Source: Chloracidobacterium sp. (lineage in GTDB: Bacteria > Acidobacteriota > Blastocatellia > Chloracidobacteriales > Chloracidobacteriaceae). From it: 64,000 nucleotides of DNA. The notes beneath the pieces were generated by a model. That model had not been told where the DNA came from and searched no databases. It saw only the letters and a program-made list of their open reading frames with translations. The stretch is taken from contig JANWUV010000005.1 of assembly GCA_025057975.1 (NCBI GenBank), positions 62,001 through 126,000 on the forward strand, given 5' to 3'. Below, piece after piece: positions 51,352 through 60,561 of the stretch. The translations under genes were made by a program, and so were the position numbers. Numbering within the stretch: the first letter of the stretch is position 1; every line of letters starts with the position of its first letter.

Positions 51352-51451
51352 AGCCGCGTTCGCCAGTCGGATTTTTCCATCGTGAATCGGCGCAGCGCGA
51401 TATAGGCTGGGACTAACTGCTTTTGTGATTTTATGGCCTGTTGATGTGTTC

Positions 51452-52408
51452 ATGAATCCAACCATTCCCACCACTCGCCTTGACGCCGACCTGATTATCG
51501 GCTCGCGCGGCAGCGCGCTTGCACTCTGGCAAGCCGAATGGGTCAAAGCGCAACTGGAGCAAGCTGTACCAACACGCCGCGTCGCCATTCAGATCATCAA
51601 GACCACCGGCGACGCGATTCTTGACGCGCCGCTTTCGAAGATCGGCGGTAAAGGCGTTTTCACCAAGGAAATCGAAGAAGCCCTGTTGGCTGGCGTTGTG
51701 GATCTGGCCGTCCACAGTTTGAAGGACTTACCAACCCGTTTACCCGAAGGTTTGATGCTGGGTTGCGTGACACGGCGGGAGGATGTCCGCGATGCGCTAG
51801 TGGCTCGCGAAGGGATTCAGTCGCTAGACGATCTACCACCCAACTCGGTCGTCGGCACCAGCAGCCTGCGCCGTCAGGCGCAGCTCCTAGCCCGGCGGCC
51901 CGACCTGCGGCTGGTTGACCTGCGCGGCAATGTCGGCACGCGCCTTCAGCGTCTTGATGAGGGGCGCTATGACGCCGTCATTCTAGCATCGGCCGGACTA
52001 GTACGGCTGGGTTTCGAGTCGCGCATCGTACAGCGCCTGTCGACCGATGTTATGCTGCCAGCTGTTGGGCAGGGCGCGTTGGGCATCGAGATTCGGGAAG
52101 AGGATGTCGCTACCCGCGAAGCAGTGCAGGTCCTTGCCCACCACTCGACTTGGCGGGCGTGTGAAGCCGAGCGCGCCTTCCTACATGGCCTTGGCGGCGG
52201 ATGTCAGGTCCCTATCGCGGCGCACGCTGTGGTAGATAACGAAGGCCGTCTGCGTTTGCGCGGTCTGGTGGCGCGAATAGATGGAACGCGCCTTGTGCAA
52301 GATGAACTGACCGGCGATGCCCGCTTCGCTGAAGATATCGGCCGGGAACTAGCTGAGCGTGTTCTGCAGCAGGGCGCAGCCGAGCTGTTGAATGAACTGA
52401 GCGCCTGA
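51452..52408 (+). CDS. hemC: Porphobilinogen deaminase HemC
   Basis: 318 residues from ATG 51452; a GTG nine codons earlier is also possible. Joins four porphobilinogens into hydroxymethylbilane for tetrapyrroles. Seen: IIGSRGSALALWQAEWVKAQ, DLAVHSLKDLPTRLPEGL, VVGTSSLRRQAQLLARRPDL, RGNVGTRLQRLDEG and the dipyrromethane-cofactor cysteine in GLGGGCQVPIAAHA. Further hem or pigment genes are absent from the window. Confidence 0.95.
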   Translation: MNPTIPTTRLDADLIIGSRGSALALWQAEWVKAQLEQAVPTRRVAIQIIKTTGDAILDAPLSKIGGKGVFTKEIEEALLAGVVDLAVHSLKDLPTRLPEGLMLGCVTRREDVRDALVAREGIQSLDDLPPNSVVGTSSLRRQAQLLARRPDLRLVDLRGNVGTRLQRLDEGRYDAVILASAGLVRLGFESRIVQRLSTDVMLPAVGQGALGIEIREEDVATREAVQVLAHHSTWRACEAERAFLHGLGGGCQVPIAAHAVVDNEGRLRLRGLVARIDGTRLVQDELTGDARFAEDIGRELAERVLQQGAAELLNELSA

Positions 52409-52545
52409 GACCCCCTTTCCGGTCTTTCACTGTGCGTGTGCCTAGGCTGCTCGTCCGGCAGGCGCTTGACGGATTCGCCTCCCCTTTCCCACGATACGGC
52501 GCACAGGCGCAACGCCTGTCCTGTTTATTAAGGAGAGTTGGTCTC

Positions 52546-53154
52546 ATGCTGGAGCACTGTTGCCAAGTTTACCGCCAAGTCCGCCGAATGAGCGGACTGC
52601 TCGGCGCATCCCTTGTCTTGTCGGCTATGATCGGTTTCGCCCAAGAGGGGACGCCTGCACCAAAACCGGCCAAGGTCAAGCCGGCGAAAAAGCGTGCCAG
52701 AACAGCGCCAAATGCGGACGGAAGTACGCCTCCACCAGCTAACTTAGCCGACCTGCCGCTGGGGGTGCAGGACAATCTAACCGAAGCCAAACGCCTTCAA
52801 GAGCGATATCGACGTGAAGAAGCCGCCCGGCGACGAGCCGAGGCGGAAGCGCGCCGGAAGGGGTTGCCATGGCCGCCGCCGGAGGAAACCAGCCCGGAAA
52901 GCCTACCGCCCGCCCCATCCACTCCTGATACGCCGCCGCCCCCACAGCCGGCCGTCTCACAACCGGCACCACCGTTGGAATACAACCCGCCGCCAGCCGC
53001 CCCGCCGGTCGAAACTCAGGCAACAACCTCTCAAAGTGGGAACAACCCTCAGAATCCGGCGGGACCTCCGCCTTCTCCACCCGCCGACGGTAGAACCGTC
53101 ATTCGGACATGGCCGTCGTCCAAAAAACCAGCCAAGCCGATGCCGCCGCAATAA
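52546..53154 (+). CDS. Exported proline-rich protein with DLPLGVQ motif (paralogue 1)
   Basis: 202 residues from ATG 52546, preceded by AAGGAG. Signal-like segment MSGLLGASLVLSAMIGFAQE, then a basic Lys/Pro region, then ADLPLGVQDNLTEAKRLQER and a charged helix (RREEAARRRAEAEARRKG). The last ~90 residues are almost wholly Pro/Thr/Gln (PSTPDTPPPPQPAVSQPAPP). No enzyme motif is visible. The gene 145 nt downstream encodes a second protein with the same DLPxGVQ...AKRxQE block and similar layout. Probably periplasmic or surface-exposed. Family and function unknown to me. Confidence 0.7.
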   Translation: MLEHCCQVYRQVRRMSGLLGASLVLSAMIGFAQEGTPAPKPAKVKPAKKRARTAPNADGSTPPPANLADLPLGVQDNLTEAKRLQERYRREEAARRRAEAEARRKGLPWPPPEETSPESLPPAPSTPDTPPPPQPAVSQPAPPLEYNPPPAAPPVETQATTSQSGNNPQNPAGPPPSPPADGRTVIRTWPSSKKPAKPMPPQ

Positions 53155-53299
53155 GGCAAGTCACGCAAATTTTTCTACCTCTGCGCCTAAGCAACACGGT
53201 GGAAACACGCGGTGCGTACAATGTAGGCGAACCGTTTCCTGAGGACTGCACCCGCACAACACCACTGCTCAACGAGCTGACTGGAAAGGAAGGACGATA

Positions 53300-54034
53300 A
53301 TGAGTCGGAAGTACAACATCGTTGGCTTGGCGCTAGGGACGCTAGTTGCTCTTGCTCCTGCAACCACTTACGGGCAGGGCGCAAAACCCAAACCACAGGT
53401 GCGTCAGAAGTCCACTATGCGCAGCGCTGCGGCATCCGGCGCGATGCAAACAACGACCATAGACACGTCGGACCTGCCGATTGGTGTGCAGCAGGGGTTG
53501 GCCGACGCCAAACGCTATCAAGAGATGCAGCAGCGCGCCGGAAAGCAAGGGCAGGCATCGCCGCCGCTGCCGTACACGCCACATACCCCGTTCATCATCG
53601 CGCCAGCGACCGGCACCGGCGTCCCAACGTACACGACGCCCACGCCTGGCGTCCCATACGCTGCACCAGGTGGACCGGCAACAGCACCGTATCCGCCGTT
53701 CTGGCCTGTTCTGCCATCCGGCGGCTACGCACCGGCGGAGACACCGCCGCCCGCCTATGGGCTTCAATCGCCGCTGACTTCTCCGGTGCAACCGAACTTT
53801 ACCTTCGGGCAAACGCCGCCTCCGCCGCCAGCGCGGCAAATGTCTCCAGCAATGCGGCAGCTGCAGCAGTTGCAAGAATACCTAGACTACATTAACGGAA
53901 TCTCGATTGACACCCCACCCAACATTGGCCCGGTAACGCTGCCGAGCGCTCCAGAGATGCCGTCGGGTGGTGCAATTCAAATGTCCGTTCCGGCGTCAGG
54001 CGGTGGCGGACTGACGCTAAGTGGGCGTCCATAG
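53300..54034 (+). CDS. Exported proline-rich protein with DLPIGVQ motif (paralogue 2)
   Basis: 244 residues, ATG preceded by AAGGAAGGA. Signal peptide IVGLALGTLVALAPATTYGQ, then a region ending SDLPIGVQQGLADAKRYQEM, where the core DLPIGVQxxLxxAKRxQE matches the first paralogue. A long Pro/Thr/Tyr-rich stretch follows (FIIAPATGTGVPTYTTPTPG; PPFWPVLPSGGYAPAETPPP) and a helix SPAMRQLQQLQEYLDYING. The tail is Gly/Ser-rich. No cysteine, enzyme motif or membrane anchor beyond the signal is seen. Together with its neighbour it looks like a lineage-specific exported pair beside a large secreted protease. Confidence 0.68.
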   Translation: MSRKYNIVGLALGTLVALAPATTYGQGAKPKPQVRQKSTMRSAAASGAMQTTTIDTSDLPIGVQQGLADAKRYQEMQQRAGKQGQASPPLPYTPHTPFIIAPATGTGVPTYTTPTPGVPYAAPGGPATAPYPPFWPVLPSGGYAPAETPPPAYGLQSPLTSPVQPNFTFGQTPPPPPARQMSPAMRQLQQLQEYLDYINGISIDTPPNIGPVTLPSAPEMPSGGAIQMSVPASGGGGLTLSGRP

Positions 54035-54102
54035 CCGGCGCTCAAGGCCGAATGCCGGCTAGCAAGCGCCACTAGGCCACCAGCCTACGTCTCCTGAGGA
54101 AT

Positions 54103-57100
54103 TTATGGGACGGACACCGGCGGTTGCTTAGGCTGTCCGTCCCAGTTGCCGATGAGCGGCACATCGCCGGGCACGCCGTAGTTCACCCGAATATCCGGCC
54201 CGCCGCTTGTATTTGAGTTCCGCAACTGGAACTGAATCGTTCCGCCTAAGTTCGTCACCACGCCCACTGTTGCAAACCCCTGCCGCGTCCAGTCCCCGGC
54301 GACCGGCGCGACAAGGTTGCCTGTCGTCGTCATCACAAAGTCGGCGTCCGGCGCGCCGCTGGTGTTGGCGTTCTTGAGCAGAAAACGTCCCGTACTCGGC
54401 CGATACAGTCCCAATCCGGTCACGTTGCTCCCGGCCGTCCACCGTCCGGCGATGGGCAGGTCAGTCGCCTGCGCGCCCGTGATCGTCACCGTCAGGTCGG
54501 CATTCCCCGCCGCCAACGCATTCCGCAGGAAAAACGTCTGTGTACTTGGACGGTACACCCCAACCGTCACCGTCCCGTCCCCGTCCCAGTCACCGGCAAT
54601 CGGAATGTCGCCGGGCTGCCCGAAGGCAAACGACACGTCGGCAAAACCACCCGTGTTGTTGTTGATGAGGAAAAACGTCATCGCGCCGTTGACGTTGCGG
54701 TAAATCCCCGGCGTATCAATCCCGTCGCCGTCCCAGTCTCCCGCAAGGGGAATGTCGCCGCCTAACCCATAGAAGAAGTCCTGATCGGCGAAATCCGAGA
54801 TGAGCTGGTTTTTGAGGTACATATAACCGTTGGATGGGCGGAACATTGCCATCGTGGAACCAACCGGCGCGCTTGCTCCCGACGAGCCGGCCTGCGTGAC
54901 GGTCACGACCTGCCCGGCGACAAAACACGTTCCGGTACGCGGCGTGGGGCGCGGGTTGCGCCCGACGGCGATGGTCACTGTGCCGTTGCCGATGCCGGAA
55001 AGCACCAGCCGCCGGTTGACATCTCCCAGCGCCCCGACCATGCGGGGGAGAACAAGACGCCCACCCGCCAACTGTGCGGCGATGACCTTAATCCACGGCG
55101 CGTCCGTGTTGCGTACCGTCGCTTCCCACGCGCAGCTTGACCCGGTTGTCACCGTCAGTTGGACGCCGGTCAGACTGTCGCCGCCGACGTTGACGGTGGT
55201 CGGCGTCACGGCGAACGTGCAAAGTCCCTGTCCGACCGTCACTGTCAGGTTTTGTGTCACGGCGCCTAGGCTGTTTGCTGCGCGCACCACGAGGGAATAT
55301 GCGCCGGTGTCGCCGGCTGTCGGCGTCCCGACCAACGAGGCGATTCCGAGACCGCCCGTAAAGGTCAAGCTCGGCGGCAAGTTTCCGCTCACCAATGTGA
55401 TGTTGGGCGGTGGAAAGCCGCTCGCCGTCACCAAGAAGCTGGACGCCTGCCCGACCGTGAATGTCACCGCACTCGGGCTGGTGAAGCTTGGCGCGACTTC
55501 CCCTGCACCGCTCTGCGTAATCGTGAACGTGTTGCCGCCGGGATTGAGCGTCAAGGTCGCCGTTCGCCCCGGCCCCGGATTCGGTGCAACTTGAAAGTTC
55601 ACCGGCGTCAGTAGATTGCCGGCGGCAGGGAATCCGGTCACCCAGTCGGGAATCCCTGAAATCGTCCACTCACCGACCGCATTGACGGCGACCTGCTGCG
55701 GCGCACTCGATCCGCTCGCCGGAACGACCACCCCGCTTGCCGAAAAAATCGGGTTCACCGTCCACCCAAGGTCTCGCAACAGGTTAAGCGTCAAATCCTG
55801 CGTGCGCGGCAGGCGCGGCGTAATCGCCGGCTCCATCAGCAGGCGCGGACGTACCGTGTTGTCCCAGTGCGAAACCGACGAGCCGGCTTGACGCGGATTC
55901 GGCGCAAACATCCGCAGCCGCCCGTTGGTCGTCCCGGCCAAGCGCGTCGGGTCGAGCCGCAGCGTCGCCGTGACGCTTCCGCTCGACAGAAAGCCGCGCA
56001 GGGTCGCGCCGTCCGCCTGAGAAATCCCCACCACTGGAATCGTGATATTCGCCGCCGTCCCACCGGGAGTGAAACCGCCCGCAACGTTGTTGGCGATGAT
56101 GACGCCCTGCGCGCCGGCCTGCTGTGCATTGAACGCCTTGTCCACAAACGGGCAGTCGCCCCGATCCACCAACGCTAGATTCCCGTTGACCGCCCCCGGA
56201 TTCGACAGCGGCCCGCACGCCAGCGGCGGCTGCGCCGCGATGAGCGGGCGGGTCAGTCCGCCCAGCGTAATTGCGCCGCCAAACGTCGCCTGATTGACCG
56301 CGAACGTTACCGGCGGGTCGCGCTCGATACGCAACACCGGGGACGGCTCCAGCGCCACCGGCAGCGCGCTCTGCGTCGTCGCGCCTGTCCACGTCAGGTT
56401 GCTGGTATTGATGGCCGACGCCTGCCGTTGCGCCGCCGTCATCTGATTCCAGTTCAGATTGAGATTCTCATCGCGCAGCAATCGCGCGTAGCAATCCGTA
56501 AAGCCGCCGTCCGGGTTCTCGTCGCTCGCCCCTGCATTGCGCCCGTTCTCTATGTTGACAAACGTGCTGAACCCTAGCCCGTGGGCGAGTTCGTGGAGCA
56601 CTACGGTCAACAAGTCCACCTGGTCGGGCGGCGCGTTGTTGTCAAGACCAAGGTAAAACGTGAAGTTCGTGCTGAAGTTCGTGTTGATCTGCGCACGCAG
56701 TGGCTCTTGCGGTGCCAAATCCCATCCAGCCAGCGCGTTTGCCAGCGCGTAGTGATACCACGTGTCGCCAAACGGTGCATTTGGGAAACTGCGAAAAATC
56801 GAGGTTGTCCCAGCGGAGCCGAGAACGCCGCTCGGCAACGACGTGAACCGCCCATTGACGATAATCGGAACGCTGCTACGGAGTGTCGCACCCCAGATTT
56901 CAGCTGCCCGCTGGAAGACGTTGAGCCGCTGCTGCCCAAGGGTGGTGCCGGGATTGCCGCCGACCGGCGTCGCCGGGGTCGGATCGTTGAAGCCGACGCC
57001 GGGGTCGTTCTGGTTGCGAATGATGATGGTCGAGCCTTGTACGTTTTCGTGTTTGGCCGCCGGCCCAGTCGCCGCGCCGGCCTGCATCCATGTCGGGGGC

Positions 57101-57525
57101 AACACGATGTCGCGGTTGGGAAGCCGGCCGGGAGTGTTGTCGGCGTGGCCGCCTCGCGAGCCGTCAGTGTCGCCGCGCAGGAACGCCTCCGCTTCGGACA
57201 CGCTGCCAACGCAGGCAACGGTCACACGTCCGTCGGCTTCACGCCGCGCTAGCGCGACGTGCTGAAAGCTGTCGCCGAGGTCGAGCATGACGGCCCCGGA
57301 TGCAAGGCGCTGCTCCGCCTGACGACCAAGATCGCGGCGTGTAACGCGGGCGACGAACTGAAGCGTTTCGTGGAACGAGTCGTCCTTGTCGGCGGCGCGT
57401 CCGGTCAAGCGCGAAGCAGGTGCAAAGCCTCCTGTAGGGAGACCGCAGACGCCAATCAAAACAACCACCAGACACGTCCCAACCCGTAGGGCGACCGATG
57501 GGTGATGAGAACGACCGTGCAACAT
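54103..57525 (-). CDS. Large secreted zinc metalloprotease with PA insert, BACON-like and FG-GAP-like repeats
   Basis: 1140 residues from ATG 57525. A signal-like segment is near residues 10-35 (VALRVGTCLVVVLIGVCGLP). The catalytic zinc site is LTVVLHELAHGLGFSTFVN (about residue 314). A PA-domain-like insert (about 420-500) contains GNLALVDRGDCPFVDKAFNA and VPVVGISQADG; SVSHWDNTVRPRLLMEP closes the protease. Then come a BACON-like segment (WTISGIPDWVTGFPA), Ig-like domains, and a C-terminal set of about five repeats such as GDIPLAGDWDGDGIDTPGIY and GDVPLIGNWDG. It is probably exported; the repeats may bind a surface or polymer. Convergent with the second DLPxGVQ gene (68 nt apart). Confidence 0.82.
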   Translation of the reverse strand: MLHGRSHHPSVALRVGTCLVVVLIGVCGLPTGGFAPASRLTGRAADKDDSFHETLQFVARVTRRDLGRQAEQRLASGAVMLDLGDSFQHVALARREADGRVTVACVGSVSEAEAFLRGDTDGSRGGHADNTPGRLPNRDIVLPPTWMQAGAATGPAAKHENVQGSTIIIRNQNDPGVGFNDPTPATPVGGNPGTTLGQQRLNVFQRAAEIWGATLRSSVPIIVNGRFTSLPSGVLGSAGTTSIFRSFPNAPFGDTWYHYALANALAGWDLAPQEPLRAQINTNFSTNFTFYLGLDNNAPPDQVDLLTVVLHELAHGLGFSTFVNIENGRNAGASDENPDGGFTDCYARLLRDENLNLNWNQMTAAQRQASAINTSNLTWTGATTQSALPVALEPSPVLRIERDPPVTFAVNQATFGGAITLGGLTRPLIAAQPPLACGPLSNPGAVNGNLALVDRGDCPFVDKAFNAQQAGAQGVIIANNVAGGFTPGGTAANITIPVVGISQADGATLRGFLSSGSVTATLRLDPTRLAGTTNGRLRMFAPNPRQAGSSVSHWDNTVRPRLLMEPAITPRLPRTQDLTLNLLRDLGWTVNPIFSASGVVVPASGSSAPQQVAVNAVGEWTISGIPDWVTGFPAAGNLLTPVNFQVAPNPGPGRTATLTLNPGGNTFTITQSGAGEVAPSFTSPSAVTFTVGQASSFLVTASGFPPPNITLVSGNLPPSLTFTGGLGIASLVGTPTAGDTGAYSLVVRAANSLGAVTQNLTVTVGQGLCTFAVTPTTVNVGGDSLTGVQLTVTTGSSCAWEATVRNTDAPWIKVIAAQLAGGRLVLPRMVGALGDVNRRLVLSGIGNGTVTIAVGRNPRPTPRTGTCFVAGQVVTVTQAGSSGASAPVGSTMAMFRPSNGYMYLKNQLISDFADQDFFYGLGGDIPLAGDWDGDGIDTPGIYRNVNGAMTFFLINNNTGGFADVSFAFGQPGDIPIAGDWDGDGTVTVGVYRPSTQTFFLRNALAAGNADLTVTITGAQATDLPIAGRWTAGSNVTGLGLYRPSTGRFLLKNANTSGAPDADFVMTTTGNLVAPVAGDWTRQGFATVGVVTNLGGTIQFQLRNSNTSGGPDIRVNYGVPGDVPLIGNWDGQPKQPPVSVP

Positions 57526-57684
57526 GGCCAATCTCCAAAAGCATAAGTCTCAAGGAAGTTACGCAGCAGGGGCGATGCGCCGGGCACATTAGTCGGGACT
57601 AAAAGACAAGGCAACGGGCGGCATTGCCGAGGTTGACAAACGCCCGCTGAAATCCGGTGTTGCGGTTGGCGCGAAATTGAGCAC

Positions 57685-59545: not shown

Positions 59546-59779
59546 CGATAATTCGCCGTTTGGCGTGCGGTGGTTGGACGCGCCGCTTTCCCGTGTGGCG
59601 GCGTTCCGTCATGCACTGCCCGCACGGCGCGGTGGTTTCCCCGGCGACAAGTTTTTCGGCGCGTTTACGCCAAGCATTGCCACATAGTCTTGAAAACTGC
59701 GCCAGCACTGAAAAAGTCTTGATGGGGCAGACCTTTTTTGTTGTCATACCCGTCTGTCAGTCCGTCCAACACGCTTTTC

Positions 59780-59811
59780 CAGCCGACGCGCTGCGTTCGG
59801 TGTGTCGGCTG
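59780..59811 (+). promoter_or_regulatory. Stem-loop in the leader of an unknown gene
   Basis: CAGCCGAC and GTCGGCTG form a perfect 8-bp stem around a 16-nt loop, ending 33 nt before the ATG at 59845 and outside its AAGGAGG ribosome site. It lacks a T tail, so a terminator is unlikely; a structured leader or operator is possible. The 59546-59779 part of the gap holds no gene I can support. Confidence 0.5.
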
Positions 59812-59844
59812 AAACGCAAACCTTTCAGCAAGGAGGCGTTCGTT

Positions 59845-60561
59845 ATGTTTGTCGTGCGGGTGGCGAACAATGCCCACTACATGGATGACGAGGAGACATA
59901 CATACACTCCCAGTACCCAACTTGGGCCGAAGCGGTCGCCGCCGCCCGCCAAATCGTGGACAGGAGTCTGACCGAGTACTTCCAGCCGGGTATGGACGCC
60001 GAGAGTCTCTACGCTCAGTACATGGCGTTCGGGGACGACCCGTACATCGTGTCACCACCGGAGGGAGAAGGCTTCTCAGCTCGAGAGTACGCCAAGCAAC
60101 GATGCATCGAGCTGTGCAGTCAGGGTGCCGTCGCATCGGAAGCTCGCGCCGCTTCCACAGCAGATGCCGCTCGAACAGACCCCAAGGCGAGGTCAACCGC
60201 GACGAAATACCTGCGAGTGACAATCAACGATACGCTTGGGTTTTGGGACGACAACTTAGGGACGCATGTCTTCAACCCAAATTTCAAGCAAACATTCACC
60301 GTCTGGTATCGCGTACCGGAAAACTGGGTCATGGAGGGCACGGTCGGCGCTGAGCGACGTGAAGCGATCTTTAGACATCTCTACGGCGACAGCTGGCGGT
60401 TGGGCAATGCGGACGGTTCAAAGTACTTTGTGCTGGCGTGCGACATCCACGTGTTGACGCCTCCCGAAGTAGAGCAACGCCCGTGGTTGACGACAGCGCA
60501 GCCCTGCTATGTCGTCGCCGAGGCAGACACTGTGGAAAAAGTCAGCCCTGAGACGCTATAG
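59845..60561 (+). CDS. Two-domain protein of unknown function
   Basis: 238 residues from ATG 59845 with AAGGAGG 8 nt upstream; the frame is open upstream but is not protein-like. The first ~90 residues (VVRVANNAHYMDDEETYIHS, AVAAARQIVDRSLTEYFQPG and MDAESLYAQYMAFGDDPYIV) match a widespread uncharacterised small bacterial protein that, to my memory, often stands alone. After an Ala/Ser-rich linker a second domain begins KYLRVTINDTLGFWDDNLGT and includes YRVPENWVMEGTVGAERREA. I do not recognise this part; it may be an added domain. No catalytic motif, signal peptide or membrane segment is visible. Confidence 0.7.
   Translation: MFVVRVANNAHYMDDEETYIHSQYPTWAEAVAAARQIVDRSLTEYFQPGMDAESLYAQYMAFGDDPYIVSPPEGEGFSAREYAKQRCIELCSQGAVASEARAASTADAARTDPKARSTATKYLRVTINDTLGFWDDNLGTHVFNPNFKQTFTVWYRVPENWVMEGTVGAERREAIFRHLYGDSWRLGNADGSKYFVLACDIHVLTPPEVEQRPWLTTAQPCYVVAEADTVEKVSPETL

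Follow-up and report, generated by a model that had tools for sequence, protein, structure and literature searches.

Tandem proline-rich proteins, probably exported and sharing a constrained, predicted helical block, in the genus Chloracidobacterium

Background

Chloracidobacterium is a photosynthetic, hot-spring bacterium. Among the described systems that come closest to the gene pair analysed here, TonB and TolA have an N-terminal hydrophobic stretch that is followed by a proline-rich or helical, charged periplasmic spacer. RcnB-like exported proteins carry an LPPG-type motif. Small polypeptides of the genus itself have also been described. PscU, PscV, PscW and UPP are small subunits that have been newly described in the reaction centre of C. 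thermophilum (PMC9751088; PMC10968294). UPP is characterized there as unassigned, membrane-spanning and non-helical and was modelled as polyalanine (PMC9751088), and the review gives its length as 19 residues (PMC10968294). The abstract of a further paper describes Chloracidobacterium as the only chlorophototrophic genus in Acidobacteriota (PMC8245765).

The two genes considered here, A and B, lie next to each other in a window of 64,000 nucleotides of Chloracidobacterium DNA. Their products resemble TonB and TolA in combining a hydrophobic N-terminus with a proline-rich, charged spacer, but they differ in having no family match, no predicted folded C-terminus and a probable N-terminal cleavage, and in being two tandem paralogues. 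With the RcnB-like proteins they may share a short LPxG helix cap within an apparently exported, basic, low-complexity protein, whereas all 14 A and B proteins lack a Pfam family at E ≤ 0.1. Like the reaction-centre polypeptides, they are polypeptides of unknown function from this genus. Profiles of A and B match no PDB chain meaningfully, in a PDB set that may or may not include the reaction-centre chains, and the modelling of UPP as polyalanine leaves no UPP sequence to compare with A and B. Both proteins can be described as lineage-restricted, exported, proline-rich and low in complexity with no known family, the signal part of this description being read by eye. The Chloracidobacterium papers that we consulted contain no mention of the pair, though others may mention it.

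Results

Gene A (positions 52546..53154, + strand) opens with the ATG at 52546, is preceded by a Shine-Dalgarno-like AAGGAG and encodes 202 amino acids; it has orthologues in 7/7 genomes of the genus. Gene B (53300..54034, +) opens with the ATG at 53300 and encodes 244 amino acids. Both reading frames lie exactly where the original prediction placed them, and its picture of two adjacent genes with signal-like starts, proline-rich tails and a shared block agrees with their coordinates, composition and block identity. By eye, a hydrophobic N-terminal stretch followed by an (A/G)|Q junction is present in 7/7 A and 7/7 B proteins. On the alignment, the signal-peptide-like segment would cover residues 1-32 of A (52546..52641, +), with cleavage before Q33, and residues 1-25 of B (53300..53374, +), with cleavage before Q26. 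From these starts we judge both proteins to be exported and cleavage to be probable; the stretch could instead be an uncleaved anchor, and a periplasmic location is as possible as a surface one. The mature window proteins contain 25% (A) and 19% (B) proline. Mature A and B are basic (pI 9.2-9.9, computed for two of the seven genomes) and have no cysteine.

The shared block, DLPxGVQxxLxxAKRxQE, occupies residues 69-86 of A (DLPLGVQDNLTEAKRLQE; 52750-52803, +) and residues 58-75 of B (DLPIGVQQGLADAKRYQE; 53471-53524, +), with 12 of its 18 positions identical. Judging from both family alignments, the motif is better given as [DEN]LP[LI]G[VI][QL]xx[LM]x[DE][AV][KR]Rx[QE]E. Whole A and B match each other by BLASTP (E = 3e-7), and the mature proteins reach a Smith-Waterman score of 115 that none of 2000 double shuffles attains (mean 67, maximum 107). 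An hhalign comparison of the two families (probability 97.3, E = 2e-11) spans the N-terminal part with the signal region and the block. Because all three measures of similarity stand above chance, A and B are, on their sequences, tandem paralogues with diverged tails.

Searches of known families recovered nothing that covers the block, in line with the original statement that the proteins belong to no recognized family. For the window proteins there was nothing usable in Pfam, NCBIfam or PHROGs, with only noise from NCBIfam, nor was there in Pfam for the seven A and seven B orthologues; the best match in these searches, to the Rrn6 K-rich entry, has E = 0.49. An hmmsearch of PDB chains gave only two chance matches for the A profile, both to an SPT2 homologue (E = 0.48-0.49), and none for the B profile.

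Selection in both genes is concentrated on the block. We used Nei-Gojobori counts for 20 of the 21 genome pairs, leaving out the near-identical pair G001-G005; with pS at 0.65-0.77, near saturation, the pN/pS ratios are rough, though the contrast between regions is clear. In both proteins constraint is strongest in the block region: pN/pS is 0.143 for residues 66-114 of A (DLPLGVQ...RRKGLPWPPPEE; 52741..52887, +) and 0.242 for residues 57-92 of B (DLPIGVQ...SPPLPY; 53468..53575, +). The linkers have ratios of 0.489 (A) and 0.546 (B) and the tails 0.473 (A) and 0.707 (B). Constraint in A thus runs well beyond the block as first delimited, to RRKGLPWPPPEE, and in B it reaches the PPLPY that follows the block. 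The last 21 residues of A (GRTVIRTWP..KKP...PPQ; 53089..53151, +) form a second, weaker conserved patch in the alignment (pN/pS 0.309). This concentration of selection fits the earlier proposal that the block is a real interaction surface; it is a fit and not a demonstration of one.

AlphaFold2 models, built from shallow alignments of seven sequences and poor overall (mean pLDDT 60.6 for A and 51.8 for B), predict that the block is a helix within otherwise disordered chains. In A this helix is confident and extends over residues 72-104, with ten-residue mean pLDDT up to 82, and in B it is fair and covers residues 61-82, about 22 in all. Both begin directly after DLP, which would resemble a helix cap. 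Further helices are predicted in the signal region of A (residues 2-30) and at residues 183-199 of B (53846..53896, +), where conservation is not strong (pN/pS of residues 181-200 is 0.710). The remainder is mostly low-confidence coil, and the C-terminal parts, modelled from the same seven-sequence alignments, contain only helices and such coil, with no folded domain predicted.

A and B are present and adjacent in 7/7 Chloracidobacterium genomes, and neither was found in three genomes from three other genera of the same family. A search with B of 58 genomes, including its own, matched ten at E ≤ 0.1, namely the seven of the genus and three weak ones (E = 0.003-0.09); with A, eight of 11 genomes matched at E ≤ 1, the seven of the genus and one other (G011, E = 0.5). 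Two peptide patterns from A, run against 84,980 species genomes, returned 115 candidate stretches with three relatives. A scan of this type with B alone returned 78 stretches and no relative; it must be insensitive or omit near records because relatives of B do exist in G001-G006.

A profile of the block, built from 12 of the 14 known copies (both from G005 were left out as near-duplicates), recovers the two known genes in every genome of the genus at 71 bits or more, with one weak extra match in G006 (13.3 bits). It found no complete block in the 155 non-genus genomes among 162 of the class, where only partial matches occur (40 of the 155 at E ≤ 0.5, best 19.6 bits). Nor was a complete block found outside the genus among 396 genomes of the phylum, a sample that includes four of the genus and overlaps that of the class; partial matches in five non-genus genomes (E ≤ 0.01, at most 20.9 bits) correspond mostly to the charged helix and not to DLPxGVQ. 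Of the 17 class loci L040-L056, 15 were taken up (all but L053 and L055), and the translations obtained for 12 of these contain no full block pattern. A few class loci resemble half a block, such as L046 ('LLPIGIQDGLADV') and L049 ('ELPLGLRQRLAEVTR'), and were treated as chance. The L046 match (17.7 bits) begins at 1501 on the minus strand; here G088 has an open frame of 683 residues in which LLPIGIQDGLADV resembles the opening half of the block. In these samples, the motif search across Acidobacteriota that the original prediction had proposed found the block only in this gene pair, in 7/7 genomes of one genus. That prediction would have been refuted by a lack of conservation beyond the pair, and here the outcome is divided: orthologues are conserved, but the block occurs in no other protein found.

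We also considered diverged orthologues at the same position. Six genomes of the order outside the genus (G007-G012) have a hemC match, and by eye none of them shows an A- or B-like reading frame beside it; in G013 hemC itself was not matched. Since these six hemC neighbourhoods show no such gene, A and B have the appearance of an insertion specific to the genus at this locus.

A conserved 33-base element (CTTGACG...CACGATAC; 52465..52497, +) appears in the alignment upstream of A. With up to three mismatches it occurs once per genome in six of the seven genomes, always upstream of A, and G004 has a diverged copy that is visible by eye but missed by the pattern. The pattern was derived from these loci, so that its matches there hold by construction and only its absence elsewhere is informative; a reversed control pattern gave one match, in G004. 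Genes co-regulated through the element were sought and none was found, as there is no second copy in the six genomes that the pattern matched. Its -35-like TTGACG suggests a promoter, but a sigma-70 consensus scan of 52000-54300 returned none. Shortly 5' of the AAGGAG of gene A, within the presumed 5' untranslated region, lies a hairpin of seven pairs (ACAGGCGCAACGCCTGT; 52503-52519), which was scanned as terminator-like; by eye, none was seen in the other six genomes.

A and B likely form a two-gene transcription unit, although the intergenic gap of at least 112 bases in 7/7 genomes (145 in the window) is long for a tight operon. The best hairpin 3' of B beats all 20 shuffles in five of the seven genomes; it is marginal in G002 (1/20) and not above the shuffles in the window genome (9/20 reach it). 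In G001 and G005 (L030, L032) a GTTGAGTAGTCGCTCCCACACCTGA unit is directly repeated in the gap between A and B; no such repeat was seen in the other five genomes.

The order hemC-A-B-convergent protease is fixed in 7/7 genomes of the genus. The upstream neighbour is hemC, the gene for porphobilinogen deaminase (51425..52408, +; PF01379, PF03900). Downstream, on the opposite strand, is the protease gene of the original prediction (54103..57531, -), which encodes 1142 amino acids with PA and BACON domains and a HELAHGLGF motif. At E ≤ 1e-20, the N-terminal 444 residues of the protease match 17 of the 58 genomes searched, ten of them outside the genus, and neither A nor B was found in those ten. 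Further along the window, the C-terminal 236 residues (59851-60558) of a reading frame at 59560-60561 (+) are without a Pfam match at E ≤ 0.001.

Discussion

We tentatively propose, with a probability of about 0.4, that A and B act as exported tethers, mostly disordered, which dock through the helical segment that they share. A tandem duplication would have produced the two genes prior to the diversification of the genus. The pair would have a small transcription unit to itself, and its products would be exported through the inner membrane. Cleavage would leave each as a long, flexible, proline-rich chain in which a single amphipathic helix with a DLP N-cap lies towards the N-terminus. The conserved helix would be the working part and could dock on a periplasmic or outer-envelope partner; this partner might be the same for both proteins, or A might dock on B. 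The fast-evolving tails may serve as spacers, and the tail of A may finish with another short, conserved contact site (VIRTWP..KKP). The net role would be that of exported tethers or scaffolds, one to which no known family lends support. Kept in all sampled genomes, with a dedicated upstream element and one protected helix, the pair is a clean target for the study of a genus-specific envelope function; taken alone, it is one among many lineage-specific exported families.

The main rival to the tether reading is self-assembly through the shared helix, which we regard as unlikely but worth serious consideration. The helix would then act in self-recognition, giving coiled-coil oligomers of A with B (or of each with itself), and the proline-rich tails would make up an exported matrix, or a layer that promotes aggregation. 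The helix is amphipathic in both proteins, with hydrophobic V, L, A, L/Y and Y every three to four residues, and the two genes always occur together. However, the helix of B is short for this purpose, and the conserved DLPxG cap and the polar KR..QE exceed what a coiled coil needs.

Improbable, too, is a partnership with the neighbouring convergent protease, of which A and B might be substrates, inhibitors or anchors. The original prediction had called a secreted surface system possible on the strength of this proximity, and the adjacency does hold in 7/7 genomes with both sides apparently exported. The tie is nonetheless weak: convergent genes are not one transcript, the ten non-genus genomes have protease homologues where A and B were not found, and hemC is equally constant upstream, so the adjacency may be mere conserved gene order.

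A TonB- or TolA-like role, in which a membrane-anchored, proline-rich or helical spacer transmits force or contact through the periplasm, seems very improbable. Its appeal is the sequence of an N-terminal hydrophobic stretch, a proline-rich spacer and a charged helix, together with the conserved C-terminal end of A, but neither protein matches a TonB or TolA family or has a predicted folded C-terminal domain, and the (A/G)|Q junction suggests cleavage where an anchor would be required. Equally little probability attaches to the idea that A and B are low-complexity proteins that evolve fast and do nothing important, their block being left over from common ancestry, an idea which the weak constraint on the tail of B (pN/pS 0.71) would favour but which is already largely refuted by the retention of both genes in 7/7 genomes at near-saturated synonymous divergence, by a block pN/pS of 0.14-0.24 and by the conserved upstream element.

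The least probable reading makes A and B an exported accessory of the phototrophic membrane, with the helix docking on the periplasmic face of the photosystem and, at its boldest, one of the chains being UPP itself; it draws on the proline-rich, probably non-helical tails and on the genus-only distribution, which fits, yet would fit any genus-specific function as well.
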